64,000 nucleotides of DNA from Thermobifida fusca NBRC 14071 = JCM 3263. Its GTDB lineage: Bacteria > Actinomycetota > Actinomycetes > Streptosporangiales > Streptosporangiaceae. Position 1 is the stretch's first letter. Every line of letters starts with the position of its first letter. Where the stretch lies: contig NZ_BCWB01000044.1 of NCBI RefSeq assembly GCF_001592045.1, positions 1-64,000 on the forward strand, in the 5' to 3' direction. The notes beneath the pieces are model-generated. The model was not told where the DNA came from. It was given only the letters and a program-made list of their open reading frames with translations, and ran no database searches. The position numbers and the translations under genes were made by a program. Below, piece by piece: positions 35,428-60,078 of the stretch.

Positions 35428-36216
35428 TCAGCTCACAGCGGCCCGGCGCAGCAGATAGACGTCCATCACCCAGCCTTGCGCCGCCTTGGCGCGTTTTCGG
35501 GCGGCGCGGATCGCGTCCATCACCTCACCAAGCCGTCCTGCGACCAGCTCCTCGCTTGCGGTGCCAAGGTTGGCGCCCCACCAGATATCCCAGCCCGCAC
35601 CGGGCAGCTCAGCACAGGACAGGCAGCCGTCGAGAAACACCACCAGAGTGTCGGCCCCGCGGGCCACATCGGTGCCGAGCCGCCGTCCGGTCGTCACCGT
35701 GATCGGGCCGCCGATGCGGTTGAGCACGATCCGGTGTCGGGCTGCGAGCAGCTGGACGCTACTCACTCCCGGAATCACCTGGTAGTCCAGGTCCACTCCG
35801 CAAGATCGGATGCGTTCCACCACCCGGATCGTGCTGTCGTAGAGGCTTGGATCACCCCAGACGAGAAAACCAAGCACCTCATCGGGGCGGGTGTGTTTCA
35901 CGATGGCGTCCGTATAGGCGCGTGCTCGGGCAGCATGCCAGTCCCGGACCTGCCGGCCGTAGCCGTGGTCCGCCACGGGGGCACGGTCTCGCGGCGGGTC
36001 AGGCACCGTCACGATCCGGTAGTTGTTTCCAGTGATGTGGCGGCGGCAGATTTCTTCCCGCAGCGCCACCAAGTCACCGGTGCCTTCCCGGCCTGCCGCT
36101 GCCTCTTTGTCCGCGACAAGAAAGACGTCGACCTCGTTGAGCGCCCGGACAGCCTCGACCGTGAGCTGGTCGGGTCCGCCCGGCCCGATACCGATGAGCA
36201 GGGCTTTCCGGGTCAC
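35428..36216 (-). CDS. cobF: Precorrin-6A synthase (deacetylating), C1-methyltransferase
   Basis: A 262-residue SAM-dependent tetrapyrrole methylase of the aerobic B12 pathway. It methylates C1 of precorrin-5 and releases acetate. It starts KALLIGIGPGGPDQLTVEA and has the SAM-binding GFLVWGDPSLYDSTIRVVER and VIPGVSSVQLLAARH motifs. CobF is specific to the oxygen-dependent pathway. The GTG at 36216 overlaps the cobN stop (GTGA), which decides against the longer reading from 36309. Confidence 0.95.
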   Translation of the reverse strand: MTRKALLIGIGPGGPDQLTVEAVRALNEVDVFLVADKEAAAGREGTGDLVALREEICRRHITGNNYRIVTVPDPPRDRAPVADHGYGRQVRDWHAARARAYTDAIVKHTRPDEVLGFLVWGDPSLYDSTIRVVERIRSCGVDLDYQVIPGVSSVQLLAARHRIVLNRIGGPITVTTGRRLGTDVARGADTLVVFLDGCLSCAELPGAGWDIWWGANLGTASEELVAGRLGEVMDAIRAARKRAKAAQGWVMDVYLLRRAAVS

Positions 36217-39200
36217 GTCCGATTCGTCCCCCGGTCCTCCAGTTCTCCCTCGACTTCCAGGTAGACGCGGCGCAGCGCCTCCATTGTCTGTGGGTGGGGC
36301 TCCCGCCACAGGCCACGATCAGCAGCCTCGGTGAGCCGCTCCACAATGCCCTGGAGCGCCCAGGGGTTCGCTTGCCGGAGGAACTCCTGATTCTCGGTGT
36401 CCAGGACATAGGTCTGGGCGAGGGTCTCATACATCCAGTCGTCGACCACCCCCGCGGTCGCGTCGTAGCCGAACAGGTAGTCGACAGTGGCGGCCAGTTC
36501 AAATGCGCCCTTATAACCGTGGTTCCGCATCGCCGCCAGCCACCGGGGGTTAACCACTCGGGCACGGAAAACCCGGGCGGTCTCTTCCCGCAGCGACCGG
36601 GTGCGCACCTGGTCCGGTGTGGTGGAATCGCCGATGTAGGCCTTCGGCTCGATGCCGGTGAGGGCGCGCACGGTGGCGACCATGCCGCCGTGGTATTGGA
36701 AGTAGTCGTCCGAGTCGGCGATGTCGTGCTCGCGGGTGTCCGTATTCTTCGCGGCTACCGCGATCCTCCGATAGTTGGCACGCATGTCTTCCGCAGAAGG
36801 CTCACCGTGCAGGTTGCGCCCGTAGGCGAAACCGCCCCACGCGGTGTAGACCTCGGCGAGATCAGCGTCGCTACGCCAGTCACCAGAGTCGATCAGCTGG
36901 AGCAGGCCTGCCCCGTAGGCACCGGGGGCGGAACCGAAGATGCGCCGCAGCGCGCGTTCACGGTCACCGTGTTCCGCGAGGTCGCTGCGGACGTGAGCCC
37001 GCACGTAGTTAGCGTCGTCCGGTTCGTCGAGTTCCGCCACCATGCGGACGGCGTCGTCGAGCATGGCGACCGCGTGAGGGAAGGCGTCTCGGAAGAACCC
37101 GGAGATGCGGACGGTGACGTCGATGCGTGGGCGTCCCAACTCGGGCAGCGGGATGACGCTCAGCTCCCGCACCCGGCGGGACACCTCGTCCCATTCGGGG
37201 CGCACCCCGAGGAGAGCGAGCACCTCAGCGATGTCGTCTCCAGAGGTACGCATAGCTGAGGTTCCCCATACTGATAGCCCCACCGAACGCGGATACTCGC
37301 CGGTTTCGGCGCGGTAGCGTTCAATAAGCGCGTCAGCCAATGCTTTCCCGGTCTCGTAGGCGAGCTGGCTCGGGATGGCCCGGGGGTCGACGGTGTAAAA
37401 GTTGCGGCCGGTGGGCAGTACGTTAACCAGGCCACGCAGCGGCGATCCCGACGGTCCGGCGGGAACGAAGCCGCCGTTGAGGGCATGGAGTACCGCGGTG
37501 ATTTCTTGACGGGTGTCTGCGAGCCGTGGAATGACGTGCTCGGCCGCAAACCGGAGCACCCGGACCACGTCCGGAGCGGTCTCGCCGAGCCGGTCCGCCA
37601 CGACCTGTGCCTGTTCCGGATCCCAGCCGGCTTCCTCCATGGCCTCGACCAGGGCGCGGGCCCGGGCTTCGACGGCGTCAACCTCCGCCCGGTTTCCGGT
37701 GTCTCCCGCCAGGCCGAGAGCACGGCGCAGTCCAGGCACAGCACCGGCCTGCCCACCCCACACTTGGACAGCACGCAGGATGGCCAGCACCAGGTTGACG
37801 CGGGCCTCGCCGACAGGCGCCCCACCTAGCACGTGCAGTCCGTCGCGGATTTGAGAGTCTTTGACTTCGCACAGCCAGCCGTCGACGTGCAGCAGGAAGT
37901 CGTCGAATTCCGCGTCATGCGGCCGCTCGGACAGCCCCAGGTCACGGTCGAGTTTGGCGGCCTGGATGAGAGTCCAGATCTGCGCCCGGATCGCGGGAAG
38001 CTTCGCCGGATCCATCGCGGCGATGTTGGCGTGCTCGTCGAGGAGCTGCTCCAGCCGGGCGATGTCGCCGTAAGACTCGGCGCGTGCCATCGGGGGCACA
38101 AGATGGTCGATGATCGTCGCGTGGGCCCGCCGCTTAGCCTGCGCCCCTTCACCCGGGTCGTTGACGAGGAAGGGGTAGATGAGCGGCACCGCGCCGAGTG
38201 CGGCATCGGTGGCGCACGCCGCGGACAGTGCGGCGTTCTTGCCGGGCAGCCACTCCAGGGAGCCGTGTTTGCCGAGGTGGACGATGGCGTGGGCGCCGAA
38301 GCCGCATTCCAGCCACCGGTATGCGGCGAGGTAGTGGTGGGACGGCGGCAGGTCGGGGTCGTGGTAGATCGCCACCGGGTTCTCTCCGAAACCACGCGGC
38401 GGCTGGATCATGAGCACCACGTTGCCTGCCTGGAGGGTAGCGAGCACGATGTCGCCGTTGTCGACGAAAAGCGTGCCGGGCGGCTCTCCCCAGTGCTCGT
38501 TCACCGCGTCAATCAGTTCACCGGGCAGGTCGGCGATCCACTCCCGGTAGCGTTCGGCCGGGATGCGCACCGGATTTCCCGCTAACTGTTCGGCGGTCAG
38601 CCACTCCTCGTCCTGTCCACCGGCTTCGATGAGGGCGTGGATGAGGGTGTTACCCGCTTCGGTCTCGTCCGCCAGGTCCACACCGGGAAACCCGTCTCCC
38701 AGGTCGTATCCGGCGTCCCGCATGGCCCGCAGCAACCGCACCGCGGAGACGGGGGTGTCCAGGCCCACGGCGTTGCCGACTCGGGAATGCTTGGTGGGGT
38801 AGGCCGACAGCACGATCGCGACCCGGCGCTGGGCGGGTGGGATGTGCCGCAGCCGGGCATGAGCGACGGCGATGTCGGCTACTCGGCGGCACCGTTCCGC
38901 ATCGGTGACGTAGTGGGGCAGTCCTTCGTCGTCGAACTCCTTGAAGGAGAACGGCACGGTGATGATGCGCCCGTCGAATTCGGGGACGGCGATCTGGGAT
39001 GCAGAGTCGAGGGGGGACGTCCCCTCGTCGGAAGCCTTCCACTGATCACGCCCCCACGTCAGGCAGAGCGCCTGCAGGATCGGAATGTCGAGTCGCGCTA
39101 GTTCACCAACGTCCCACGCCTCGTCGTCGCCTCCAGCACTGGCTGTGGCCGGGCGGGTTCCTCCCGCGGCGAGCACGGTGACGACCAGCGCATCCAGGGT

Positions 39201-39842
39201 GCCGAGCTCCGCGAGGAGTTCCGGGGATGCGCTGCGCAGCGACGTGCAGTAGATGGGGACGGCGACCGCTTCGCCGGTAGCGTCGACCGCGTCAGCCAGG
39301 TCGTGGACGAAACGAGTATTCCCGCTGGCCTGGTGGGCGCGGTAGTAGAGGATGCCAATCCTCGGCAGCCCGTCCCGGTCCGCCTGTGGTGGCGTGGACC
39401 GCTCAAGCAGGCCCCATTCGGGCAGTTCTGTCGGCGGATCAAAACTCCCACCGGTCAGCAGCACGGTGCTGCTGAGGAAGGCATGCAGCGCAGCGAGGTT
39501 GTCGGGCCCCCCGTGGGCCAGATAGCGGTGGGCTTCAGCAGCGATCCCGACGGGTACGGTGGAATGGCTCATCAGCTCCGCGTCCGGGGTCTGCTCTCCG
39601 CCCAGCACCACAACGGGGACGCCATGGGTTAAAACCTGGTCGAGGCCCTCCTGCCACGAGCGCGCAGACCCCAGAATGCGCACAATTACCAGGTCAGCGC
39701 CGTGAAGCAGGGCGTGGAGCGAACCGGGATCTGTTCCGGTGACGTCGAGACGCGACGGGTTGCCCCAGACGTAGTTTGCGCCGCTGGCACGTGCCGACAG
39801 CAGGTCGGTGTCCGAGGTGGAAAGCAGTGCTATGCGAGGCAT
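36213..39842 (-). CDS. cobN: Aerobic cobaltochelatase large subunit CobN
   Basis: A 1209-residue subunit that binds hydrogenobyrinic acid a,c-diamide and inserts cobalt with ATP hydrolysed by its partners. It shows the CobN/BchH-type features GIAAEAHRYLAHGGPDN, HLGKHGSLEWLPGKNAALS, LPTGRNFYTVDP and a C-terminal helical region. Length matches the family. The usual cobS/cobT partners are absent; the ChlI/ChlD fusion at 46 kb is the likely ATPase. A full cobalamin riboswitch and a short leader ORF precede the gene. Confidence 0.96.
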   Translation of the reverse strand: MPRIALLSTSDTDLLSARASGANYVWGNPSRLDVTGTDPGSLHALLHGADLVIVRILGSARSWQEGLDQVLTHGVPVVVLGGEQTPDAELMSHSTVPVGIAAEAHRYLAHGGPDNLAALHAFLSSTVLLTGGSFDPPTELPEWGLLERSTPPQADRDGLPRIGILYYRAHQASGNTRFVHDLADAVDATGEAVAVPIYCTSLRSASPELLAELGTLDALVVTVLAAGGTRPATASAGGDDEAWDVGELARLDIPILQALCLTWGRDQWKASDEGTSPLDSASQIAVPEFDGRIITVPFSFKEFDDEGLPHYVTDAERCRRVADIAVAHARLRHIPPAQRRVAIVLSAYPTKHSRVGNAVGLDTPVSAVRLLRAMRDAGYDLGDGFPGVDLADETEAGNTLIHALIEAGGQDEEWLTAEQLAGNPVRIPAERYREWIADLPGELIDAVNEHWGEPPGTLFVDNGDIVLATLQAGNVVLMIQPPRGFGENPVAIYHDPDLPPSHHYLAAYRWLECGFGAHAIVHLGKHGSLEWLPGKNAALSAACATDAALGAVPLIYPFLVNDPGEGAQAKRRAHATIIDHLVPPMARAESYGDIARLEQLLDEHANIAAMDPAKLPAIRAQIWTLIQAAKLDRDLGLSERPHDAEFDDFLLHVDGWLCEVKDSQIRDGLHVLGGAPVGEARVNLVLAILRAVQVWGGQAGAVPGLRRALGLAGDTGNRAEVDAVEARARALVEAMEEAGWDPEQAQVVADRLGETAPDVVRVLRFAAEHVIPRLADTRQEITAVLHALNGGFVPAGPSGSPLRGLVNVLPTGRNFYTVDPRAIPSQLAYETGKALADALIERYRAETGEYPRSVGLSVWGTSAMRTSGDDIAEVLALLGVRPEWDEVSRRVRELSVIPLPELGRPRIDVTVRISGFFRDAFPHAVAMLDDAVRMVAELDEPDDANYVRAHVRSDLAEHGDRERALRRIFGSAPGAYGAGLLQLIDSGDWRSDADLAEVYTAWGGFAYGRNLHGEPSAEDMRANYRRIAVAAKNTDTREHDIADSDDYFQYHGGMVATVRALTGIEPKAYIGDSTTPDQVRTRSLREETARVFRARVVNPRWLAAMRNHGYKGAFELAATVDYLFGYDATAGVVDDWMYETLAQTYVLDTENQEFLRQANPWALQGIVERLTEAADRGLWREPHPQTMEALRRVYLEVEGELEDRGTNRT

Positions 39843-48102: not shown

Positions 48103-48716
48103 TGCCTCAAGGACAACCATCGTTCATCCCCGACGACGGACTCACCACCCGCCAGCGCCGCTACCGTCCGCTGCTCATCGTGCACACCGGTGACGGCAAG
48201 GGAAAGTCCACTGCAGCGTTCGGCCTGGCCTTGCGCGGGTGGAACCAGGGGTGGCGGATCGCGGTGTTCCAGTTCGTGAAGTCCGCGAAGTGGCGGGTTG
48301 GGGAGCAGACCGCATTCGACACGCTTGCCGCAGTACACCGTGCGCAAGGGGTGGGAGGCCCCATCGAGTGGCACAAAATGGGGTCAGGGTGGTCGTGGTC
48401 GCGCAAGCCGGGCACGGAAGCCGACCACGCGGCCGCTGCCGCAGAGGGGTGGGCCGAGATCAAGCGCCGCCTCGCCGAGCAACGGCACGACCTTTACATA
48501 CTCGACGAGTTCACGTATCCGATCACCTGGGGCTGGGTCGACGTCAACGACGTGGTGTCGACGCTGCGTGAGCGTCCGGGACGCCAGCACGTGGTGATCA
48601 CCGGCCGCCGCGCGCATCCCGCGCTGCTGGACGCAGCCGATCTGGTCACGGAAATGGTGAAAGTGCGACATCCCATGGACTCCGGGCAGAAGGGGCAGCG
48701 CGGTATTGAGTGGTGA
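48102..48716 (+). CDS. cobO: Cob(I)yrinic acid a,c-diamide adenosyltransferase
   Basis: A 204-residue CobO/CobA/BtuR-type enzyme that adds the 5'-deoxyadenosyl group from ATP to the reduced cobalt. It has the P-loop HTGDGKGKSTAAFGLALR (family-specific reversed loop), FQFVKSAKWRVGEQ, DLYILDEFTYPITWGW and VVITGRRAHPALLDAADLVTEM. ATG overlaps the chelatase stop by one base (TGATG). Confidence 0.97.
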   Translation: MPQGQPSFIPDDGLTTRQRRYRPLLIVHTGDGKGKSTAAFGLALRGWNQGWRIAVFQFVKSAKWRVGEQTAFDTLAAVHRAQGVGGPIEWHKMGSGWSWSRKPGTEADHAAAAAEGWAEIKRRLAEQRHDLYILDEFTYPITWGWVDVNDVVSTLRERPGRQHVVITGRRAHPALLDAADLVTEMVKVRHPMDSGQKGQRGIEW

Positions 48717-50130
48717 CGTTCCCGCCGCGGTCCTGCCACGGCTAGTGATCTCCGCTCCCACGTCCGGGGCGGGTAAGACCACCGTGGCTACCGGGCTCAT
48801 GGCGGCGCTGCGCGCTGCCGGATACGACGTGTCCGGGCATAAGGCCGGACCGGACTATATCGACCCCGGCTACCATTCCCTGGCAACCGGGCGGCCCGGC
48901 CGCAACCTCGATGTGCACTTGCACGGTGAGAACCTGCTGGGCCCCTTGCTGCTACACGGCGCCTCCCATCCGCGGCCGGCCGACCTGGCCGTGATCGAAG
49001 GCATGATGGGCCTGTATGACGGGAAGCTCGGGGGGCGCGGGTTTGCGTCCACCGCGCATGTCGCCGCCCTGCTGGACGCTCCGGTGGTGCTGGTCGTAGA
49101 CGTGTCTCACGTGTCGCGGTCGGCCGCGGCGATCGTGGCGGGCATGGCAGTGTTCGACCAGCGGATTCGGATCGCCGGAGTCATCTTGAACCGGGTGGGC
49201 TCCAGACGGCACGCCGCCGAGGTCGCTTCCGCGGTGGAGGACGTCGGTGTCCCCGTGCTGGGGGCACTGCGCCATGACAGCGGACTTGCTGTTCCTTCCC
49301 GGCACTTGGGTTTGGTTCCTGCCGAGGAACGGGCCGAGGCAGTAGCGGCCGTGGAGCTGCTGGCGGAACGCATCGCCGCACAGGTGGATTTGACTGCCGT
49401 GGTAGAGGTGGCACGATCCGCGCCACCGCTGCACGCCCAAGCGTGGTCCGCGCAGGAGGCGCTCCGTGCCGCAGGGTTTCACCCTGTCTCCGCGCAGCGA
49501 GACCACCCCGTGGTCGCGGTAGCTGGAGGGCAAGCCTTCACCTTCCGCTACGCCGAAGTCGAGGAGCTGCTTCGCGCCGCGGGCTGCCGCCCGGTGGTGT
49601 TCGATCCAATGTCCGACCCTGCGCTGCCCGACGGCACCGCGGGAATCTACCTGGGCGGCGGATTCCCCGAGGTGTACGCCGCAGAACTGGCGGGGAACAC
49701 GGCGCTGCGCACCGCGCTGCGGGATGCGGTGCGCTCAGGCGTGCCGACGGTTGCCGAATGCGCGGGCCTGCTGTATCTGTGCCGTGACGTGGATGGCGCC
49801 CCCATGGTGGGGGCCTTGGACGCGGTGGGACGCATGACGTCCCGCCTGGCTCTCGGCTACTACTCGGCGCTGGCCCCCGCAGAAACACTCGTGGCGGCGG
49901 AGGGAGACCGGGTGCCCGGGCACACGTTCCACCGCACCACAGTCACCTCCACTGGAGAGCAGGCGGGTCCGGCCTGGCTGTTGGACGGGCAGCCCGACGG
50001 TTTCTCCTCCGATCCGGCAGGCATCGGCCGTCCCACACTCCACGCCTCCTACCTGCACACCCACTGGGCAGGCTGCCCGCAGGCCGCGGCCCGGTTCGCG
50101 GCTGCAGTCTCCACCCAGCGGCCTTGTTGA
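48706..50130 (+). CDS. cobB: Cobyrinic (hydrogenobyrinic) acid a,c-diamide synthase
   Basis: A 474-residue glutamine amidotransferase that amidates the a and c side chains. The N-terminal P-loop domain starts RLVISAPTSGAGKTTVATGL, then KAGPDYIDPGYH and VIEGMMGLYDG. The C-terminal class-I glutaminase has its nucleophile Cys in TVAECAGLLYL and the HASYLHTHW His region. TTG 48706 is the only suitable start, 10 bases after AAGGGG and overlapping cobO by 11 bases. Last gene before a strong terminator. Confidence 0.96.
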   Translation: MSGDVPAAVLPRLVISAPTSGAGKTTVATGLMAALRAAGYDVSGHKAGPDYIDPGYHSLATGRPGRNLDVHLHGENLLGPLLLHGASHPRPADLAVIEGMMGLYDGKLGGRGFASTAHVAALLDAPVVLVVDVSHVSRSAAAIVAGMAVFDQRIRIAGVILNRVGSRRHAAEVASAVEDVGVPVLGALRHDSGLAVPSRHLGLVPAEERAEAVAAVELLAERIAAQVDLTAVVEVARSAPPLHAQAWSAQEALRAAGFHPVSAQRDHPVVAVAGGQAFTFRYAEVEELLRAAGCRPVVFDPMSDPALPDGTAGIYLGGGFPEVYAAELAGNTALRTALRDAVRSGVPTVAECAGLLYLCRDVDGAPMVGALDAVGRMTSRLALGYYSALAPAETLVAAEGDRVPGHTFHRTTVTSTGEQAGPAWLLDGQPDGFSSDPAGIGRPTLHASYLHTHWAGCPQAAARFAAAVSTQRPC

Positions 50131-50355: not shown

Positions 50356-51102
50356 TCAGCGAGTCTGAGACAGTCCAAGCCATTCCAGGGCAGCGGGAAC
50401 GTCCGCAACAGTGGGAACGTCCCCCCGGTAGAGAGGTCTGCGCACCACCACCACGGAAACCCCCAGCTCGTCTGCGGCGTCCAGCTTGGCCCGGGTGTGA
50501 ACTCCGCCAGAGTCCTTGGTGACCAAAACTTCCACCGCATGCTCGGCCATGAGCTTCCGTTCCCCTGCACAGGTGTAAGGGCCACGGCTGCGTATGAGGA
50601 TCCACGTAGGCGGCAATGCGAGCTCTACGTCTTCCACCACTCGGGCTAACACCGTGTGCTCGGCCAGCGGCCCAATGAAGTGGTGCAGGGTCTGCCGTCC
50701 CGTGGTGAGCAAGACACGGCGCCCTAGTCTCGCGGCCTGCCAGGCTGCCTCGTCGTGGTCGTCCACCCATATCCAGCGGGACGCCGCAGGTTCGTTTTCC
50801 CACCCGGGGCGCACGAGACGCAGCAGCGGCACACCGGCCTGGGTGCACGCCTCGGCCGCGTTAGTGGACACCCGTATAGCGAAGGGATGGGTAGCGTCCA
50901 CGACCCGCGTGATCCCGTTACTGCGAAGGAATCCGGCGAGTCCTGCGGCTCCCCCGAAACCACCGATGCGTACCTCACCGGCGGGCAGCCTGGGGTGGCT
51001 GACCCGCCCGGCGAGGGAAGACAGTACCGGTATCCCCGCGGCGACGAACGCCTCAGCAAGGGCTCTCGCCTCGGCTGTTCCGCCGAGGATGAGCACTTTC
51101 AC
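50356..51102 (-). CDS. cobK: Precorrin-6A reductase
   Basis: A 248-residue NADPH-dependent reductase that converts precorrin-6A to precorrin-6B. It starts MKVLILGGTAEARALAEAF and has VVDATHPFAIRVSTNAAEAC, VLLTTGRQTL, ILIRSRGPY and the C-terminal VLVTKDSGGVHTRAKLDAA. ATG overlaps the cobQ stop by 4 bases. Last gene of the cbtB-cbtA-cobQ-cobK unit. Confidence 0.96.
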   Translation of the reverse strand: MKVLILGGTAEARALAEAFVAAGIPVLSSLAGRVSHPRLPAGEVRIGGFGGAAGLAGFLRSNGITRVVDATHPFAIRVSTNAAEACTQAGVPLLRLVRPGWENEPAASRWIWVDDHDEAAWQAARLGRRVLLTTGRQTLHHFIGPLAEHTVLARVVEDVELALPPTWILIRSRGPYTCAGERKLMAEHAVEVLVTKDSGGVHTRAKLDAADELGVSVVVVRRPLYRGDVPTVADVPAALEWLGLSQTR

Positions 51103-52604
51103 CGCAGTTCTCCCCGCACGGTCGGCAGCTTTGGCGCGCCTTCAGTGATCAACCGCAGCACAGCATCCATGTCGAGGTGTTCTTCCGCGAGGTCGCCGAG
51201 CCGGTCAAGGTAGGCGTCACGGACCTCAGCGAAGCACACCTGTCCGTATTCGCTGCCGTCGTATCCCGCATTCTCGGCCGCGGCAGCCAGCCACGCACCG
51301 CGGAACGCGTCGTGTTCTAGGCTGCCGTGCCACATCGTGCCGAATACGGAGCCGTTGCGGAGCCCGCCGGGAAACGCCTCGCCATCACCGGTCTGGATGC
51401 GGCTGTAGTGGCTCTGGTATCCGCCGACCGGTATGCCCTGCCAGGTGCCGGAAGAGTAGTTCAGCGTCTGGTTTCGGGTGAAAACCGTCTCCAGGTCCAG
51501 CAGGCTCAACCCAGCAACGGTGCGCCCGGCCGGTCCTTCCACCCCCTCGGCGTCGACAATCGTGCGGCCCAGCATCTGGAAGCCGCCACCGATGCCCAGT
51601 ACCGTGCCGCCGTGGCGGGCGTGGTTGGCGATCGCGTCGGCCAAACCGCGGGACCGCAGCCACTCCAGGTCGGTGAGCACGGCCCGCGTATCGGGGAGCA
51701 CGACGATGTCGGCGGAGGCTAGCAGGCGAGGGCTGGTAACGAAGTCGACGCGCAGTCCTGGTTCCACGCCCAGGGCGTCAACGTCGGTGGTGTTGCCGAT
51801 CCGGGGCAGCCGTACGACAGCGACCCGCAACACGGGTGTGCCCGCACTACCGTCCTCGCGTGCGGTAAGCGCCAGCGAATCCTCGGATTCCAGCCACAGG
51901 TTCTGCTGCCACGGCAGGACGCCGAGAACGGGTCGACCGGTGAGGTCTTCCAGGGTTTTCAGCGCCGGATCCAGCAGCGAAGGATCCCCCCGAAACTTGT
52001 TGATCACAAACCCGGCAACGAGTGCCTGGTCAGCGGGATCGAGTAAGGCGAGCGACCCGTACAGCGACGCGAAGACCCCGCCCCGGTTGATGTCGCCGAT
52101 CACGATGACAGGCAGGTCGGCGGCGCGGGCAAGTCCCATGTTGATGTAGTCGTGGGCACGCAGGTTGATCTCTGCGACGCCGCCCGCGCCCTCGCAGACC
52201 ACCACGTCGTAGCGGGAACGCAGCTCTGCGAGAGCGGCGTACGCAGCCTCGGCGAGCACTGCACGCGTGCCCGCAAACTCGCCTGCGGCTAAGCGGCCGA
52301 ACGGACGGCCCCGCAGCACGACGTGGCTCCCGCGATCGCTGCTGGGTTTGAGGAGTACCGGGTTCATGGCGGTCTCGGGTTCGGCGCGCGCGGCGAGCGC
52401 CTGCACCCACTGGGCGCGGCTGATCTCGGCTCCTGTGCCATCGGGCCCGGGGACCACCATGGAATTGTTCGACATGTTCTGCGCCTTAAACGGCGCTACT
52501 TTGATCCCGTGCCGGGCCAAGGCCCGGCACAGGGCGCTGGTGACCAGGGATTTTCCTGCATCCGAGGAGGTCCCGGCCACCAGCAGCCCCTGCGCCTTGC
52601 TCAT
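51099..52604 (-). CDS. cobQ: Cobyric acid synthase with altered glutaminase nucleophile
   Basis: A 501-residue CobQ, which amidates side chains b, d, e and g. N-terminal synthase domain: LLVAGTSSDAGKSLVTSAL, APFKAQNMSNNSMVV and CEGAGGVAEINL, as expected. In the C-terminal glutamine amidotransferase domain the nucleophile motif, normally GICGGxQMLG, reads GIGGGFQMLG: residue 339 is Gly (codon GGT at 51588-51590) where TGT or TGC is expected. The late MWHGSLEHDAF region is kept. The enzyme may be ammonia-dependent or impaired, or the base may be an error. ATG overlaps cbtA by 4 bases. Confidence 0.95.
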   Translation of the reverse strand: MSKAQGLLVAGTSSDAGKSLVTSALCRALARHGIKVAPFKAQNMSNNSMVVPGPDGTGAEISRAQWVQALAARAEPETAMNPVLLKPSSDRGSHVVLRGRPFGRLAAGEFAGTRAVLAEAAYAALAELRSRYDVVVCEGAGGVAEINLRAHDYINMGLARAADLPVIVIGDINRGGVFASLYGSLALLDPADQALVAGFVINKFRGDPSLLDPALKTLEDLTGRPVLGVLPWQQNLWLESEDSLALTAREDGSAGTPVLRVAVVRLPRIGNTTDVDALGVEPGLRVDFVTSPRLLASADIVVLPDTRAVLTDLEWLRSRGLADAIANHARHGGTVLGIGGGFQMLGRTIVDAEGVEGPAGRTVAGLSLLDLETVFTRNQTLNYSSGTWQGIPVGGYQSHYSRIQTGDGEAFPGGLRNGSVFGTMWHGSLEHDAFRGAWLAAAAENAGYDGSEYGQVCFAEVRDAYLDRLGDLAEEHLDMDAVLRLITEGAPKLPTVRGELR

Positions 52605-53395
52605 CGGACTCCCACTGTTTGCGCCGCGAAGCGGCGGTCAAACCGTTCGGTCAACCAGGCGAAGGCCAGTCCTAGCACCAGCCAAAGACTGGCTTGGGTG
52701 GCGAGTGAGGCCATGCGGAACTCCCACAGCAGGGTTGCTGGAAAGTCTTCGCCGACGTCGTTGATGTGGGGAAGAGCGAGGTAGCCGACGCAGACCACCG
52801 CGAGGAACACGGCGAGGGAGGCCACAATCCGTGAGGTCAGCGATGTCTCTGCTGGCAGTGCGCGTGCGAGGGCAACGGCCGCCGTAACCGCGACGAGCCC
52901 GAGGAGCACCGCGGCTACCCAAAGTAGGGTGCGCTGGTCGATTGTCTCGGGGACACCTACGGCAGGCGGGTTGGCCGGGTACTTGACGAAGGGCACCGCA
53001 GCGATGGCTGCCCATCCCAGGCCAGCGGCGACCAACGCCAGTGCCGGTCCGCTAAGCCGGCTGTGGCGCCGGACCGCGTAGAGCACCGAGGCGTAGAGCA
53101 CCCCTAGGGACATGCCGGCAAACCCGGTGGCGAGGAACAACCCCACCTGCTGCCCGGTACGGCTGACTAGGGCATCGTCTCCGTGGGAGTGTCCCCCGTG
53201 CGCGCCATGGTCGTGGGAAGCGTGCTCTTCCAAAGCGATAGCCGCCTCGATGTGGGGTTCACCGAGGAAGAAAGCGACCACGCCCGCGGCCAGGCCGGCC
53301 AGTAGCCCGGCCAACAGCCCGCGGACAAGCAATCGCAGATAGGTTCCCCGCAGCGGACGGACCGAAGCAGAGGGGGTAGCGGAGGTCAGTGACAC
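52601..53395 (-). CDS. cbtA: Cobalt transporter subunit CbtA
   Basis: A 264-residue membrane protein with about six helices. It starts LRGTYLRLLVRGLLAGLLAG and has a His-rich outer loop, EEHASHDHGAHGGHSHGDD (about 55-73), then GQQVGLFLATGFAGMSLGVLYA. This is the CbtA family, predicted cobalt importers found under B12 control. GTG start overlaps the end of cbtB by 10 bases. It supplies cobalt to the chelatase (inferred from family and position). Confidence 0.92.
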   Translation of the reverse strand: MSLTSATPSASVRPLRGTYLRLLVRGLLAGLLAGLAAGVVAFFLGEPHIEAAIALEEHASHDHGAHGGHSHGDDALVSRTGQQVGLFLATGFAGMSLGVLYASVLYAVRRHSRLSGPALALVAAGLGWAAIAAVPFVKYPANPPAVGVPETIDQRTLLWVAAVLLGLVAVTAAVALARALPAETSLTSRIVASLAVFLAVVCVGYLALPHINDVGEDFPATLLWEFRMASLATQASLWLVLGLAFAWLTERFDRRFAAQTVGVR

Positions 53396-53586: not shown

Positions 53587-53624
53587 GGTCCTCCTTACAG
53601 GATGACGCGTCCTACAGAGACCAC

Positions 53625-53720
53625 TACGCCGGGTGAGTTTTCTGGCTCACGGGCTTGAGCCCGTCTACAGTGGCGCGACCGCTCCGGACTTTGACCGGAT
53701 TGCCTGCACCCGACGCTCTT
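53625..53720 (-). promoter_or_regulatory. Compact cobalamin riboswitch controlling cbtB-cbtA-cobQ-cobK
   Basis: On the minus strand, P1 CGGGTG/CACCCG (53707-53712 with 53630-53635) encloses AATCCGGTCAAAGTCCGGAG, GGTCGCGCCACTGTAGACGG, a CGGGCTCAAGCCCG hairpin and GTGAGCCAGAAAACTCACC. The core is only about 83 bases, lacking the long arms of the other two riboswitches, and the B12-box-like element is AGCCAGAAAACTC. This resembles the cbtB-associated cobalamin-family riboswitch. Confidence 0.75.
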
Positions 53721-53754
53721 TTTGCTTTTAGTCGGGGGGAGTGTACCCAGACGC

Positions 53755-54060
53755 GTATTGCGCAATACTGACCGGTCCGCTTGTGGGATTCCCCTGCCAC
53801 GGCAGCTGGTGACAGATACCGACGTCAGGACATGTCCTTAGCAAGAGTTTCTGGTGCCAATCCCGCCCAGTGGTGTCGTTATGGCCATGCGTATAAAGCG
53901 CATAAGGTAGCCACCGAAGTCTCCCAAGCAGGGGGTAGTGCATCACATCAAAAAATGCTTGAGGGCGCCGAGCAGGTAACTAATATCGGCGGGATACCAA
54001 GAATCACCACATCAGCAGCGGGCATATTCCCAACGATAGCGGTCAACATGGCCGGCCCCG
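53755..54060 (-). pseudogene. Decayed flavodoxin-family gene
   Basis: Fragments in all three minus frames align, in order, with the intact flavodoxin at 34.9-35.3 kb. AADVVILGIP (54019-53990) matches AADAVILGTP. GALKHF follows in another frame. LPYALYTHGHNDTTG (53910-53866) matches LPYTLYVHGNNDTTG. AKDMS then a TGA (53827-53825), in a third register, matches AKGMSW, with TGA for the Trp codon, followed by SPAAVAGE matching PPVTVVGE. So there are at least three frameshifts and one nonsense codon. The N-terminal third, with the phosphate-binding loop, is missing. The flavodoxin at the other end of the locus is the only intact copy here. Confidence 0.82.
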
Positions 54061-54240
54061 CAGCGCGATCTGGCTGGGCACTTCGCTCCCGGGCGGGCGC
54101 AGGACCGGGTGCCTCGCAGGTGCGGGGGCGGCGCATGCGGTGAGTGTTTGGATCCACTAGGCGCGGTTGATTTCCGTGCCGTGGCTAGCGCAGCCGGGAC
54201 CCCCTGGAGTTATCACCGTGTTTTGCGTGGCGCCACTTTG

Positions 54241-54272
54241 GTCCTGCGCCGGGACCGGTCCCGGCGCAGGAC
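54241..54272. terminator. Perfect 32-base palindrome, probable terminator of the ehu operon
   Basis: GTCCTGCGCCGGGACC is followed immediately by its exact reverse complement. It lies 108 bases beyond the ehuA stop on the minus strand. The rest of the 54.06-54.38 kb gap holds no gene I can support. Confidence 0.6.
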
Positions 54273-54379
54273 GGTGGTGACGACGGTTTCCCCCAACAGT
54301 AGAGGGTCCCGGGGCTATCGGGAGTCCGCGTGCTTTCTGCACTGGGCTGGCTATCTCACTCCGGGACCCGCCTGACCGG

Positions 54380-55183
54380 TCAGTCGAGGACGGCGTGGAG
54401 AAAGGCTTTGGTGCGTTCTTCTTTCGGGTCGCCGAAGATCTGTTCCGGCGGGCCTTCCTCGACGATACGGCCGTGGTCGAACATGAGTACCCGGTGCGAG
54501 ACGTCCCGGGCGAACTGCATCTCATGGGTGACCAGCAGCATGGTGATGTCTGTCGTCTCGGCGACTGTGCGCAGCACGTCGAGGACCCCGGTGACGAGTT
54601 CGGGGTCAAGGGCGGAGGTGACCTCGTCAAGCAGCAGGATCTTCGGCCGCATTGCTAGGGCGCGAGCGATAGCGACCCGCTGCTGCTGCCCGCCGGACAG
54701 GTGGGCAGGGTGGGCGTCAATCTTGTCGGAGAGGTCCACCATCTCCAGCAGTTCCCTAGCCCGCTGGTCGGCTTCCTCGCGCGAAATCCCCAGGCTGTGG
54801 ATGGGACCTTCGGTGATGTTCTGCCGCACAGTCATGTTCGGAAACAGGTTGAACTGCTGGAAGACCATGCCGATCTGTTTGCGGACCCGGCGTTGGTGTT
54901 TCTCGTTGGCGCGTACCAGGCGGTCGCCCTGGTAGCGGTGGCTGAGCGGCTCCCCGCCGACCCAGATAACCCCGGAGGTGACCTGTTCCAAGGTCATCAG
55001 CAGGCGCAGGATCGTGGTTTTCCCGGACCCGCTGGGGCCGATCAAGGTGACCCGCTCGCCGGCGTCGACCGTGAAGTCCAACCGGTCGAGCACGGTGAGC
55101 GAGCCGAACCGTTTGACGACTTGGTCGAAGCGGATGAGCGGTTCGTGCGTGCCGGTGCTGGTGCGGGGGTCAGACTGCGGCAT
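54380..55183 (-). CDS. ehuA: Ectoine/hydroxyectoine ABC transporter ATP-binding protein
   Basis: A 267-residue ATPase of the polar amino-acid class: Walker A GPSGSGKTT, Q-loop MVFQQFNLFPNMTV, signature LSGGQQQR, Walker B LLLDEVTSALDPELV and H-loop LLVTHEMQFARD. An insert around SHRYQGDRLVRANEKHQRR is typical of EhuA. It powers uptake of compatible solutes. It overlaps ehuD by 14 bases and is last in the operon. Assignment to ectoine rests on synteny with ectABC. Confidence 0.93.
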   Translation of the reverse strand: MPQSDPRTSTGTHEPLIRFDQVVKRFGSLTVLDRLDFTVDAGERVTLIGPSGSGKTTILRLLMTLEQVTSGVIWVGGEPLSHRYQGDRLVRANEKHQRRVRKQIGMVFQQFNLFPNMTVRQNITEGPIHSLGISREEADQRARELLEMVDLSDKIDAHPAHLSGGQQQRVAIARALAMRPKILLLDEVTSALDPELVTGVLDVLRTVAETTDITMLLVTHEMQFARDVSHRVLMFDHGRIVEEGPPEQIFGDPKEERTKAFLHAVLD

Positions 55184-55808
55184 AGCGTCGCTCCAGTTGT
55201 CGGATGAGGATGGCTGAAGGCACGCTCACCAGGAGGAAGAACAGACCCACGAGGGTCATGGCCTCCAGGTAGCGGAAGTACACGCCGCCGATCTGCGACG
55301 CCTGGTACATCAGTTCGCCGACGGTGATCGCGAACAGCAGCGGCGTGTCTTTGAACATGGCGATCAGGTAGTTGCCGAGCGGAGGGATGACGCGGCGGAT
55401 CGCCTGCGGGAGGATGACCGCGCCCCACGTGCGGTGCAGGGGCAGGCTCAACGCCCGGCAGGCTTCCCACTGGCCTGCGGGCACGGCTTCGATGCCCGAC
55501 CGGTACACCTCCGCGGTGTAGGCGGCATAGTGCACGCCCAGCACTGCCACGCCGATGGTGAACGCCGACAGCGTGTTCGGGGCCAGGGAGAACACGAAGA
55601 CCAGTTGCACGAGCAGCGGGGTGCAGCGGATGAACTCCATGACCGCGAACACCGCGGTCCCGATCACGGGGATGCGGCGTACCAGGGCCACCGCGAGGCC
55701 GAGGACGAGCGCCAGGGTGTAGCCCAGCACCGTGGCTTGCACGGTGACAGCGAGGCCGTTGAGCAGGTCGGGGATGATCCGCCCGGTGAACTCCCAGTCC
55801 CAGGTCAT
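55170..55808 (-). CDS. ehuD: Ectoine/hydroxyectoine ABC transporter permease
   Basis: A 212-residue permease of the HisMQ family with five or six helices. It has the N-terminal LLNGLAVTVQATVLGYTLAL pattern and the EAA loop QWEACRALSLPLHRTWGAVILPQAIRR. ATG 55808 overlaps the ehuC stop (ATGA); the longer open frame upstream is a shadow. Pairs with EhuC. Confidence 0.93.
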   Translation of the reverse strand: MTWDWEFTGRIIPDLLNGLAVTVQATVLGYTLALVLGLAVALVRRIPVIGTAVFAVMEFIRCTPLLVQLVFVFSLAPNTLSAFTIGVAVLGVHYAAYTAEVYRSGIEAVPAGQWEACRALSLPLHRTWGAVILPQAIRRVIPPLGNYLIAMFKDTPLLFAITVGELMYQASQIGGVYFRYLEAMTLVGLFFLLVSVPSAILIRQLERRYAAV

Positions 55809-56527
55809 CGCCGGCCACCTCCTGTCGCGGTCGCGGGCGGGGGCCGCAGCAGGGCGAGGAAGCCGGTGGCGACGGGCCGTCCCAGCCGCCGGTTGGCGCG
55901 GCGTTCCAGGAGCCGCATTCCCACGATCAGCAGCTGGGCGATGAGGAAGTAGGCGATGAGGGCGCCGGTGAAGGCCGCGACCGTCTCCCCGGTGGAGGCC
56001 CGCTGCTCTTGGGCGACCCGGGTCAGGTCGCTGACGCCGATGAGCGACACGATGGCGGTGGCTTTCATCAGTTCGATGACGAGGTTGCCGAAGGTGGGCA
56101 GCATCTGCGCCCACGCTTGGGGCAGCACGACCGCTCGCATGCGCCGCCACCACGACATGCTGAGCGCGATCGTGGCTTCCACTTGGGCTTTGGGCACCGC
56201 GTTGATGGCGGCCCGCACGACTTCCGCCCCGTAGGCGCCGACGTTGAGGCCGAGCGCGAGCACGGCGGCGAAGAGCGCGTCGATCTTGTAGGGGACGAGC
56301 TGGGGGATCGCGAACGCCATCCAGTACATGAGGACGAGCGCGGCTACGCCGCGGAACGTTTCGGTGTAGCCGGTGGCGATGGCGCGCGCTACGGGGTTGC
56401 GCAGGGTGCCCATGACCCCCACGACCATGGCGAGGGCGAAGGCGAGCACGGCCCCGAGCAGGGTGATGAGGAGGGTGGTTCCGGCCCCGCTCAGGTAGAG
56501 CGGGAGCCGGTCGATGAGGAACTCCAC
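55805..56527 (-). CDS. ehuC: Ectoine/hydroxyectoine ABC transporter permease
   Basis: A 240-residue HisMQ-type permease: YLSGAGTTLLITLLGAVLAF near the start and the EAA loop QVEATIALSMSWWRRMRAVVLPQAWAQM. The C-terminal 25 residues are basic and Pro-rich, beyond the last helix. It begins 14 bases after ehuB. Confidence 0.93.
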   Translation of the reverse strand: MEFLIDRLPLYLSGAGTTLLITLLGAVLAFALAMVVGVMGTLRNPVARAIATGYTETFRGVAALVLMYWMAFAIPQLVPYKIDALFAAVLALGLNVGAYGAEVVRAAINAVPKAQVEATIALSMSWWRRMRAVVLPQAWAQMLPTFGNLVIELMKATAIVSLIGVSDLTRVAQEQRASTGETVAAFTGALIAYFLIAQLLIVGMRLLERRANRRLGRPVATGFLALLRPPPATATGGGRR

Positions 56528-56541
56528 GGCGGTATCCGTCC

Positions 56542-57432
56542 TTAGGCCTGGCAGAGCTGCTCCGTAGTCAGGTCTCCGGGGAGTTCTTGTTCGGTGAAGC
56601 CGAACGGTTCGAGGATTTCGAGGAGACGGCCGCTCGCTTTGAAGTCGGCGAGGACCCGGTTGACTTCGGCGAGGAGCTCGGTGTCGCTCTGCCGGAAGGC
56701 GAGACCGCCGGCAGGGGTGACTTCTTCCCCGTCCACGACGGGGATGAAGCCTTCGGTGACTTCGAAGTCGCCGCCGCGCTGGTTGAGGAGCCGGTTGAGG
56801 GAGAGGGTGCTCAGCGCGACCGCGTCGACCCGGCCGTTGCTGAGGAGTTCGTAGGCGCTGGTCTGGTTGTCCACGGTTTCGATCTGTGCTTCGGGAACTC
56901 CCGCGCCTTTGGCGTAGCCCTGTTCCACGGAGGCGTTGAGCACGGCCACGGTCACGTCAGGGTTGGCGGCGATGTCGTCGAAGGTGGTCAGGCCGTACGG
57001 GTTGCCGGCGGGGACGAGGAACGCCTGGAGGACGCGGTAGGTCGGTTCCGCGAAAGCGACTTCGGCGCACCGTTCAGGGGTGATGTACATTCCGGCGGCG
57101 ACCGCGTCGAACCGCTTGGCTTTCAGCCCGGGGATGAGCCCGTCCCAGGCCACGGATTCGGCACGGACTTCGGGAACGCCGAGTTCCGCGAAGATCGCGC
57201 GGAGCAGTTCGGGGGAGGAGCCGGTGACTTCGCCGTTCTCGTCGATGTAGCCGAAGGGGGCTTCGTTGTTGATCGCGACCTGGATGTAGCCCTGTTTCCG
57301 CAGGCTGTCGAGGGTCACAGTGTCTTCGGTGCGGGAGCAGGCGGCGAGTGCGGGACCGAACGCGATGGCGGCCAGGCCGATTCCTCCGGCGCGGAAGAGG
57401 CCGCGGCGGCTCACAGTTCCGTGGTCTGTCAT
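56542..57432 (-). CDS. ehuB: Ectoine/hydroxyectoine ABC transporter substrate-binding lipoprotein
   Basis: A 296-residue binding protein with a twin-arginine signal SRRGLFRAGG (8-17) ending in the lipobox LAAC (Cys32), so it is probably a Tat-exported lipoprotein. The SBP-type fold has QVAINNEAPFGYIDENGEVTGSSPEL, where NNEAPFGY corresponds to the ligand-pocket region of known EhuB, and FDAVAAGMYITPERC. First ehu gene, 171 bases after ectC, with two hairpins in the gap. Confidence 0.93.
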   Translation of the reverse strand: MTDHGTVSRRGLFRAGGIGLAAIAFGPALAACSRTEDTVTLDSLRKQGYIQVAINNEAPFGYIDENGEVTGSSPELLRAIFAELGVPEVRAESVAWDGLIPGLKAKRFDAVAAGMYITPERCAEVAFAEPTYRVLQAFLVPAGNPYGLTTFDDIAANPDVTVAVLNASVEQGYAKGAGVPEAQIETVDNQTSAYELLSNGRVDAVALSTLSLNRLLNQRGGDFEVTEGFIPVVDGEEVTPAGGLAFRQSDTELLAEVNRVLADFKASGRLLEILEPFGFTEQELPGDLTTEQLCQA

Positions 57433-57603: not shown

Positions 57604-58008
57604 TCAGTCGGTGTCCGTGGCGTCCTCGGTGAGCAGCGGGTACGAGCCGTTCTCGTCGTGGACTTCGCGGCCGGTGACCGGCGGGGTGAACACGCAGAGG
57701 ACGCGGAAGTCGGTCTTGGGGCGGACGGTGTGCCGCTCATGCCCGTTGAGCAGGTAGAGCGTGCCCGGTGTGATGAGGAAGGTTTCGCCGGTCTCGTCGT
57801 TGGTGACTTCTGCTTCGCCTTCGATGCAGTGCACCAGTTCGATGTGGTTGGCGTACCACATCGAGGTTTCGGTGCCCGCGTAGAGGACGGTTTCGTGGAA
57901 GGAGAAGCCGACGCCGTCCCGGGCCAGGACGATGCGGCGGCTGCGCCAGTTCTCGGTGACGACGTCGGCGTCGGTGCCGTTAATGTCGTCCAGGCTGCGC
58001 ACGATCAT
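57604..58008 (-). CDS. ectC: Ectoine synthase
   Basis: A 134-residue cupin that cyclises N-gamma-acetyl-diaminobutyrate to ectoine. Residues reported for characterised EctC are present: Glu57 ([10 protein letters not shown]), Tyr85 ([13 protein letters not shown]) and His93. It starts [16 protein letters not shown]. No hydroxylase gene (ectD) follows, so ectoine rather than hydroxyectoine is the expected product from this locus. Confidence 0.97.
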
Positions 58009-58045
58009 GGGTGTCTTCCTTTCGGCTGGTAGAGGTGCAGCACCC

Positions 58046-58089
58046 CCACTGCTTTATGCGCGTGCATATGCATGTGCATGAAGCAGTGG
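58046..58089. repeat. 44-base near-perfect inverted repeat between ectB and ectC
   Basis: CCACTGCTTTATGCGCGTGC at the left end pairs with the right half ending GCATGAAGCAGTGG. All 22 position pairs are complementary on the plus strand if three G-T wobbles are allowed. On the coding (minus) strand the same three positions become A-C mismatches. It sits in the 158-base gap between ectB and ectC. Confidence 0.8.
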
Positions 58090-58166
58090 AGCGTCGTCGC
58101 CGCAGACGTGCCGCAGGTGGACGGGAAAGGGCGCGAAGCACACCCGTCCGCGAGGGCTAGGGGAGA

Positions 58167-59432
58167 TCAGGCGGGCTGGGGGGCGCGGACCGCAGCACGC
58201 ACCGACTCGGCGAGGATGTCCAGCCCTTCCTCCATTTCGGCGACGGAAGTAGTGAGCGGAGGCAGCAGTTTGGCCACCTCGTCCTCGGGCCCGGACGTCT
58301 CCATGAGCAGACCGCGTTCGAACGCTTCGGCGCACACCCGCCGCGCGTCGCCTTCACCCGGCAGCACCAGGCCGCAGGCCATGCCGCGGCCGCGGACGCT
58401 CGCCCCGGCCTCCGCATGCTCGGCAGCGATCGCCTCGAGCCGCTCGGTGATGAGCTGCCCCTTGGCCAGGGTCTCCCGCTCGAGGGAGTCGTCGCGCCAG
58501 TAGGTGTTGAGCGCCACGGTGGCGGTGAGGAAAGCCGGGTTGAACCCGCGGAACGTACCGTTGTGCTCTCCGGGCTCCCACACGTCCAGTTCCCGTTTGA
58601 ACAGGGTCAGCGCCATGGGCAGGCCGTAGCCGCTGATCGACTTCGACAAGGTGACGATGTCCGGCACGATCCCGGCTTCCTCGAAGCTGAAGAAGGGACC
58701 GGTCCGGCCGCAGCCCATCTGGATGTCGTCGACGATGAGCAGCAGTTCGTGCTCCCGGCACAGCTCCGCCAGGCCGCGCAGCCAGTCCGCTCTGGCCACG
58801 TTGATCCCGCCTTCGCCCTGCACCGTCTCCACGATGACGGCGGCGGGCCGGTCCAGGCCGCTGCCGCTGTCTTCCAGCAGGCTGCGGAGCCACAGGAAGT
58901 CGGGGACCTGCCCGTCCATGTAGTTGTCGAAGGGCATGGTGACGGTGTGGTTGAGGGGCACTCCCGCCCCTCCGCGCTTCATGGAGTTGCCAGTCACCGC
59001 GAGCGCGCCCAGCGTCATGCCGTGGAAGCTGTTGGTGAAGCTGATCACCGTCTCCCGGCCGGTGACTTTGCGGGCGAGTTTGAGGGCGGCCTCGACCGCG
59101 TTGGTGCCCGTCGGTCCGGGGAACTGCACTTTGTAGTCCAGGCCGCGGGGTTTGAGGATCACCTCCTCGAAGGTGTCGAGGAAGTCGCGTTTAGCGGTGG
59201 TGGCGGCGTCCAGGCTGTGGACGATCGAGTCGCTGCCGAGGTAGTCCAGCAGCGCGGTTTTGAGTGTCGGATTGTTGTGGCCGTAGTTGAGCGCTCCGGC
59301 TCCGGCGAAGAAGTCGAGGTAGCCGCGGCCGGTGTGGTCGTAGACGCGGCTGCCGCGTGCCCGGGTGAAGAGGGTGGGCCATCCCCGGCAGTAGCTGCGG
59401 ACTTCGGACTCGAGTCGGGAGAAGGTTTCCAT
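58167..59432 (-). CDS. ectB: L-2,4-diaminobutyrate transaminase
   Basis: A 421-residue class-III PLP aminotransferase that makes diaminobutyrate from aspartate semialdehyde. It has DFFAGAGALNYGHNNP, FPGPTGTNAVEAALKLAR, VETVQGEGGINVA, VDDIQMGCGRTG and the PLP lysine in TLSKSISGYGLPMAL. ATG 59432 has AAGGAG 7 bases upstream; the open frame beyond it is not used. Confidence 0.97.
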   Translation of the reverse strand: METFSRLESEVRSYCRGWPTLFTRARGSRVYDHTGRGYLDFFAGAGALNYGHNNPTLKTALLDYLGSDSIVHSLDAATTAKRDFLDTFEEVILKPRGLDYKVQFPGPTGTNAVEAALKLARKVTGRETVISFTNSFHGMTLGALAVTGNSMKRGGAGVPLNHTVTMPFDNYMDGQVPDFLWLRSLLEDSGSGLDRPAAVIVETVQGEGGINVARADWLRGLAELCREHELLLIVDDIQMGCGRTGPFFSFEEAGIVPDIVTLSKSISGYGLPMALTLFKRELDVWEPGEHNGTFRGFNPAFLTATVALNTYWRDDSLERETLAKGQLITERLEAIAAEHAEAGASVRGRGMACGLVLPGEGDARRVCAEAFERGLLMETSGPEDEVAKLLPPLTTSVAEMEEGLDILAESVRAAVRAPQPA

Positions 59433-59473
59433 CGCGGATCTCCTTTGTCTCCGTTTCAGGGCAGGCGTCGAGG

Positions 59474-59493
59474 GCTCGGGGCACGGCCCGAGC
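59474..59493. promoter_or_regulatory. Hairpin between ectA and ectB
   Basis: GCTCGGG (59474-59480) and CCCGAGC (59487-59493) with a 6-base loop, in the 73-base ectA-ectB gap. Short TCGAGG repeats flank it. A transcript-processing or modulation role is possible. Confidence 0.4.
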
Positions 59494-59505
59494 GGTGTCG
59501 AGGGG

Positions 59506-60078
59506 TCAGCGCAGCGGACCGATCCGGACGAGGTCTTCGGGTTCGTGCTGCTCGGGGAGTTCTGCCGGGAAATGTCCGCGGTCGAACAGCGGAGTCCAGG
59601 AGAGGGCAGCGGACCGGGCACGGGCAAAAGAGGCGAACAGTGCTCGGGATGCCGTGTTGCCAGGGGTGACGGTGGCTTCGAGGTAGCGGATGCCGCGCTC
59701 GGTGATGCAGGAGCTGATGCGGTCGAGCATCCGGCGGGCCAGGCGGCGCCCGCGGAACGCGGGGTCGACCGCGACCTGCCAGAGGAAGTAGGTGTCGGGC
59801 GCGTCGGGACGCACGTATCCGGTGACGAAACCTCGGATCGTGCCGGTGCTGTCGCGGGCGACGAGCGATGTGGCGGCGAAGTCGCGGCACCACAGCACGT
59901 AGGCGTAGGGGGAGTTCACGTCCAGGTCGGAGATCCTGGCGAGGGCCCACAGCTGTCGGCCGTCGTCGAGTGTGGGCGGTTCGAGGGCCACGTCAGCGGC
60001 CTCGCCCGCCTTGAGCGAATGGTTACTTTCCGTATCTGAGCTATGTCGGTCCTCGGAAGGGGCTTGCTGTCCAAACAC
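59506..60078 (-). CDS. ectA: L-2,4-diaminobutyrate N-gamma-acetyltransferase
   Basis: A 190-residue GNAT enzyme. The core has RISDLDVNSPYAYVLWCRDF, TGYVRPDAPDTYFLWQVAVD and the acetyl-CoA loop FRGRRLARRML, then TVTPGNTASRALFASFAR, typical of EctA. GTG start with AGGG 9 bases upstream. The first ~30 residues (Ser/Glu/His-rich) are not conserved in general. First gene of ectABC; a 12-base palindrome lies 35 bases upstream. Confidence 0.95.
   Translation of the reverse strand: MFGQQAPSEDRHSSDTESNHSLKAGEAADVALEPPTLDDGRQLWALARISDLDVNSPYAYVLWCRDFAATSLVARDSTGTIRGFVTGYVRPDAPDTYFLWQVAVDPAFRGRRLARRMLDRISSCITERGIRYLEATVTPGNTASRALFASFARARSAALSWTPLFDRGHFPAELPEQHEPEDLVRIGPLR

Follow-up and report, generated by a model that had tools for sequence, protein, structure and literature searches.

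A putatively ammonia-dependent cobyric acid synthase homologue with a degenerate glutaminase site in Thermobifida fusca

The cobyric acid synthase homologue CobQ of Thermobifida fusca NBRC 14071 (51099..52604, minus strand, 501 amino acids) has a Gly where the nucleophilic Cys of its glutaminase domain would be expected, and further residues of this active site are replaced. The reading we favour, to which we assign a probability of roughly 0.6, is that this cobyric acid synthase, once dependent on glutamine, now depends on ammonia. Its sequence marks the protein as a descendant of the CobQ family that would no longer be a glutamine amidotransferase. All coordinates refer to the window, that is, the whole analysed stretch of 64,000 nucleotides (contig NZ_BCWB01000044.1, from position 1), and features lie on the minus strand unless stated otherwise. 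The T. fusca genome is an 82-contig draft of 3.64 Mb, listed as 100% complete, and is the only genome of the species compared. It encodes a GH6 enzyme with complete identity over 286 residues to endoglucanase E-2 of T. fusca (PDB 1tml). The genus, for which the taxonomy gives four named species, was sampled with four Thermobifida genomes, comprising T. fusca and the sisters G001, G002, and G003.

The assignment of the gene to cobQ rests on the family profile match, the domain composition, and the genomic position. Over its whole length, the protein scored above both curated NCBIfam cut-offs for CobQ (NF001989, 568.8 bits, cut-off 273; TIGR00313, 418.4 bits, cut-off 309.9), and the gene lies within a cob cluster, the order of which is collinear with that of the three sister genomes. 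The product comprises an ATP-binding synthetase part (codons 1-250, 51855..52604) and a glutaminase part of the GATase_3 type (codons 258-440, 51285..51833). The end of cobQ overlaps cobK (50356..51102) by 4 bases, and its start overlaps a cbtA-like gene (52601..53395; 33.5 bits, well below the family cut-off) to the same extent. A weak match to the cobalamin riboswitch (53615..53728; 32.7 bits, threshold 31.5) is located upstream of the cobQ operon; at this threshold, none was detected for the sister loci L007, L008, and L009. The cobB gene (48706..50130, plus strand), whose product has the same two-domain build and retains Cys352, was used as an internal control. Profile matches above the cut-off were obtained for the cluster products CobN, CobF, CobH, CobIJ, CobL, CobO, CobB, and CobK, whereas CobG and CobM each scored just below it and a ChlID-type cobaltochelatase subunit was below the cut-off as translated. 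A CobS match is present in the genome, too. An ABC transporter gene set of the ectoine/amino-acid type (54380-57432) adjoins the cob cluster, and the ectoine synthesis genes ectA, ectB, and ectC (57604-60078) are located nearby; both sets, named by reading, are also found at this place in the sisters.

The translation of cobQ contains VLGIGGGFQMLG, with Gly as residue 339 (codon GGT, 51588..51590). This agrees with the first-pass annotation, according to which the motif reads GIGGGFQMLG and the expected glutaminase Cys is missing. The nucleophilic Cys in the G-x-C-x-G elbow of class I (Cys-His) amidotransferases is thus replaced by Gly339. CobB of the same locus keeps its Cys, as had been claimed (residue 352, TGC at 49759-49761), and so does GatD, which is encoded elsewhere in the genome. 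In the alignment, Cys occupies column 339 in all CobQ homologues from outside the genus (106/106). The comparison with close relatives that had been proposed revealed the Cys codon TGC in all three sister genomes, where the motif reads GLCGGCQMLG or GVCGGCQMLG. The earlier statement that GGT is a single base away from a Cys codon is correct for TGT, but two bases differ from the TGC of the sisters. When 396 genomes of the phylum were scanned, 63 matched a search pattern that demands a Cys codon at this site, and a single one, T. fusca itself, matched the otherwise identical pattern in which the codon begins with a base other than T; these patterns are blind to Ser (TCN), Tyr, Phe, Trp, and Leu (TTR) codons, and the other 332 genomes matched neither of them (no CobQ, or a variant motif). 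A CobQ devoid of its Cys was not found described in the open-access library that was searched. The sister CobQs (L007, L008, and L009) possess an extra Cys three residues past the nucleophile, a position held by Tyr or Phe in most of the other homologues listed.

The replacements extend to other parts of the glutaminase site. Among solved structures, GatD comes closest to the C-terminal domain in fold (Foldseek, 5n9m, E 1.6e-11), and a profile comparison places both GatD and HisH proteins nearest. The CobQ positions C339, G305, K379, and H426 align with Cys94, Gly60, Arg128, and His189 of GatD (S. aureus numbering, counted along the printed alignment). For GatD, Cys94 is described as the nucleophile, Gly60 as part of the oxyanion hole, and Arg128 as the residue for glutamine capture, in addition to His189, and the variants C94A, H189A, and R128A are reported to have no glutaminase activity (PMC5871853). 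At the nucleophile, oxyanion, capture, and His sites, T. fusca CobQ has Gly, Asp, Gln, and His, respectively. Asp305 (G305D, 51690..51692) stands where the oxyanion-hole Gly is found in 106/106 homologues as well as in GatD and CobB of T. fusca, and Gln379 (K379Q, 51468..51470) replaces the Lys aligned with Arg128. Moreover, Val309 (T309V, 51678..51680) replaces a Thr present in 106/106 homologues, and codons 397-401 (51402..51416) encode QSHYS instead of EIHHG, by which the motif YEIHHG, whose Glu and Gly are common to GatD, becomes YQSHYS. The catalytic His is retained (His426, 51327..51329). Judged from these residues, the CobQ glutaminase cannot operate by the known mechanism.

If a different residue served as the nucleophile, glutamine could still be used. 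A nearby Cys shown to serve as nucleophile would have refuted the first-pass annotation by its own terms; the sole Cys of the C-terminal half is Cys457, a residue that the sisters lack. This residue immediately precedes a predicted C-terminal helix (458-476) outside the aligned GATase core, and nothing found marks it as a nucleophile. A moved nucleophile would leave the losses of the oxyanion Gly and the Lys unexplained; we regard it as highly improbable.

Much the same low probability is given to a sequencing or assembly artefact, although a single genome of the species, and a draft in 82 contigs, was at hand. A sequencing error had been called the simplest alternative in the first-pass annotation, an assessment that did not hold. 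Fifteen conserved columns are changed in the T. fusca lineage only, within an unbroken frame of 501 codons, and three of these changes (G305D, T309V, and C339G) differ by two or three bases from sister G001, codon 339 being two bases away from all sisters. The tested neighbour genes appear normal. A single-base sequencing error is ruled out as far as one genome permits. Because several codons have accumulated two or three changed bases, the loss of the glutaminase was not the last event in the history of the gene.

The fifteen changes correspond to 15 of 152 cobQ columns with a conservation of at least 95%. The same test gave 0/88 for cobM, 0/86 for cobL, 2/99 for cobO, 1/138 for cobB, and 1/64 for cobK, that is, 4/475 for the tested cob neighbours without cobN. 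The difference between cobQ and all other tested genes pooled (18/1142) was significant (p 9e-7), with 105 outgroup sequences for cobQ and 11 to 30 for the other genes; cobG, cobH, cobIJ, ehuA, ehuB, and ectB (zero outgroups) and chlD (seven) were left out. In cobN (36213-39842), 14 of 667 conserved columns carry T. fusca-only changes, compared with 5 in each sister. When each of 108 CobQs was compared with the rest, T. fusca showed the most deviations at columns conserved to at least 98%, both in the glutaminase (8/41, with 3 in the second-ranking CobQ and a mean of 0.26 in all others) and in the synthetase (5/77, with 4 in the second-ranking CobQ and a mean of 0.37 in all others), where one of the five, S142G, is common to the genus.

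The two domains of CobQ differ in their evolutionary rates. Between T. fusca and G001, dN/dS (simple counting method) was 0.15 for the synthetase and 0.38 for the glutaminase, compared with 0.36 and 0.28, respectively, for the sister pair G001-G002 and with 0.21 and 0.16 for CobB of T. fusca and G001. The whole-gene value of cobQ (0.25) is not unusual, as the other cob genes range from 0.12 to 0.255; comparisons of ehuD (T. fusca-G002 and G001-G002) and ectB (all G001 pairs) were not used due to misaligned frames (dN >1). On the T. fusca lineage, N/S amounted to 35/33 in the glutaminase versus 11/40 in the synthetase (p 0.0012), while no such domain split was seen in CobB (13.5/32.5 versus 34/57, p 0.45). 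The final 61 CobQ codons, which lie beyond both domains, gave 11.5/11.5. A T. fusca-only residue was present in 32 of 180 glutaminase columns, compared with 12/360 in the two sister lineages pooled (p 3e-8), and in 13 of 239 synthetase columns, compared with 27/478 (p 1.0). Two other measures are less pronounced: the glutaminase N/S of T. fusca against the sisters alone was not significant (p 0.37), and the tree-based glutaminase/synthetase branch ratio places T. fusca 11th of 108, which is not extreme. The synthetase N/S of 11/40 is below the values for the sisters and for CobB, and long-term neutrality of the whole cobQ is ruled out by this low value. The glutaminase half looks dead and the synthetase half looks to be still under purifying selection. 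A useless gene should relax as a whole; a fast C-terminal part next to a synthetase with low N/S is the pattern to be expected if the synthetase still works and draws on another nitrogen source, the simplest of which would be free ammonia. The expectation of the first-pass annotation that glutamine-dependent amidation of the side chains b, d, e, and g fails, unless ammonia is used directly or another glutaminase helps, is supported by the additional active-site losses and by the apparent selection on the synthetase.

The strongest competing explanation is decay of cobQ. Cobyric acid synthesis would then be incomplete, and T. fusca, or this strain, would live on salvaged or imported cobalamin; a recent loss, or a coupling of cobK translation to that of cobQ, would explain why the frame is still open. 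The 4-base overlaps of cobQ with cobK and the cbtA-like gene are in line with this, as are the smaller size of the T. fusca genome in comparison to those of its sisters and the distribution of the fifteen changed columns across both halves of the protein. Six of these columns belong to the synthetase (codons 62, 88, 169, 173, 214, and 239), including G62S (52419..52421), G88S (52341..52343), D173N in the GDIDRGG motif (52086..52088), and D239E (51888..51890). Among the T. fusca-only synthetase changes, 6/13 affect columns conserved to at least 95%, compared with 1/27 in the sisters (p 0.003). The substitutions are mostly mild (G to S, V to I, D to N, G to A, and D to E) and fit decay at an early stage or adaptation. 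G88 and D173 each vary in a single homologue that keeps Cys339 (G88E in L111, D173G in L164), and changes at these sites therefore need not be fatal, which speaks against decay.

A frameshifted relic of a second cobQ start (53990-54300, approximately codons 15-108) is located upstream of cobQ and may also be taken as a sign of decay. It shares 43% amino acid identity with sister G002 and 41% with T. fusca's own CobQ and lies within a segment, roughly 600 bases long, that is far shorter in sister G001. A second intact CobQ was sought in the T. fusca genome and rejected, the other significant CobQ match being one broken fragment only.

Against decay stand the low synthetase N/S and the conservation of cobB, cobK, cobL, cobM, and cobO, as well as the apparent need for the vitamin. 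Three B12-binding proteins are encoded in the T. fusca genome, by reading MetH and two of the acyl-CoA mutase type, and a search of the genome for the MetE N-terminal family gave no match; with MetH present and a MetE match absent, T. fusca should need B12 for methionine synthesis. Two matches to the large subunit of ribonucleotide reductase were also found. Cobalamin is reported in culture supernatants of a group consisting of the type strains of T. fusca and S. viridis, after growth in LB with cobalt (approximately 750 ppb for the two species taken together versus <10 ppb in controls; PMC10480208). This reported secretion speaks against a dead pathway. Hagerdahl medium is named for the growth of T. 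fusca in four papers, in two of them as ATCC 2382. Taken with both sides of the evidence, decay appears unlikely, although it keeps an appreciable share of the probability.

A further alternative is that ammonia is supplied in trans by another glutaminase, similar to the separate subunits of two-part amidotransferases. Five GATase_3 matches exist in the genome, namely CobQ, CobB, the MurT-adjacent GatD, PdxT (by reading), and a weak one on contig 40, and the proteins other than CobQ would be the candidates. However, GatD and PdxT have partners of their own: that of GatD is MurT, and PdxT works with Pdx1. In addition, the glutaminase domain of CobQ is still fused in place, and a gene for such a subunit was not recognised in the cob cluster. 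We therefore hold supply in trans to be improbable.

We infer, in keeping with the ammonia-dependent reading, that the CobQ protein is active with NH3 as its nitrogen source. The N-terminal ATP-dependent domain would continue to activate the carboxylates b, d, e, and g, drawing NH3 from solution. The C-terminal domain may retain its fold and would probably have a structural function, without hydrolysing glutamine. The predicted CobQ structure, for which 34 of the homologues at hand were aligned, has high confidence along most of the chain (mean pLDDT of 90.3, with low values at 241-245 and 250-254) and demonstrates no more than compatibility of the sequence with the fold. At high temperature and alkaline pH, more of the ammonium is present as NH3, and hot, ammonia-rich, alkaline compost would be expected to favour the use of free ammonia. 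A more far-reaching version, to which we give slightly less than even odds, is that CobQ is obligately ammonia-dependent, that the synthetase changes are adaptations to NH3 from outside, and that the cobalamin output of this keystone thermophile of compost is governed by environmental ammonia, pH, and heat.

If the ammonia-dependent reading is true, the B12 pathway would offer a parallel to the glutamine-to-ammonia switch of CPS1, and this in an organism reported as a cobalamin supplier in compost (PMC10480208). Unless T. fusca uses free ammonia to make B12, the claim that it is a producer needs re-examination. In both cases, homology-based calls of a "complete pathway" can conceal a catalytic loss. 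The sister species with intact CobQ are ready-made controls.

Three known systems lend themselves to comparison. With the CobQ/CbiP family (TIGR00313, NF001989; Pfam CbiA and GATase_3), the T. fusca protein shares the two domains and the place in a cob cluster, but it differs from the family in the absence of the nucleophilic Cys, the oxyanion-hole Gly, and the capturing Lys and in the altered YEIHHG motif. The Cys-to-Gly change itself has a counterpart in the C94G variant of GatD in the MurT/GatD system, in which glutamine-dependent amidation was reported to be abolished, whereas NH3-dependent amidation was unaffected at pH 8.5 and none was seen at pH 7.5 (PMC3266927). The result at pH 8.5 favours direct ammonia use by T. 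fusca CobQ, and that at pH 7.5 counts against it. GatD C94G is a single substitution introduced by design into a separate subunit, while the change in T. fusca CobQ is natural and accompanied by more extensive losses in the active site. Human CPS1 retains an inactive glutaminase-like domain with Ser294 in place of Cys, and the synthetase beside it works with ammonia (PMC4655335). T. fusca CobQ resembles such a synthase with a dead glutaminase in having lost the catalytic residue next to a synthetase apparently under selection, with the reservation of the six conserved synthetase changes. CPS1 differs in its unrelated synthetase and pathway, and its activity is proven, whereas T. fusca CobQ is known from its sequence.
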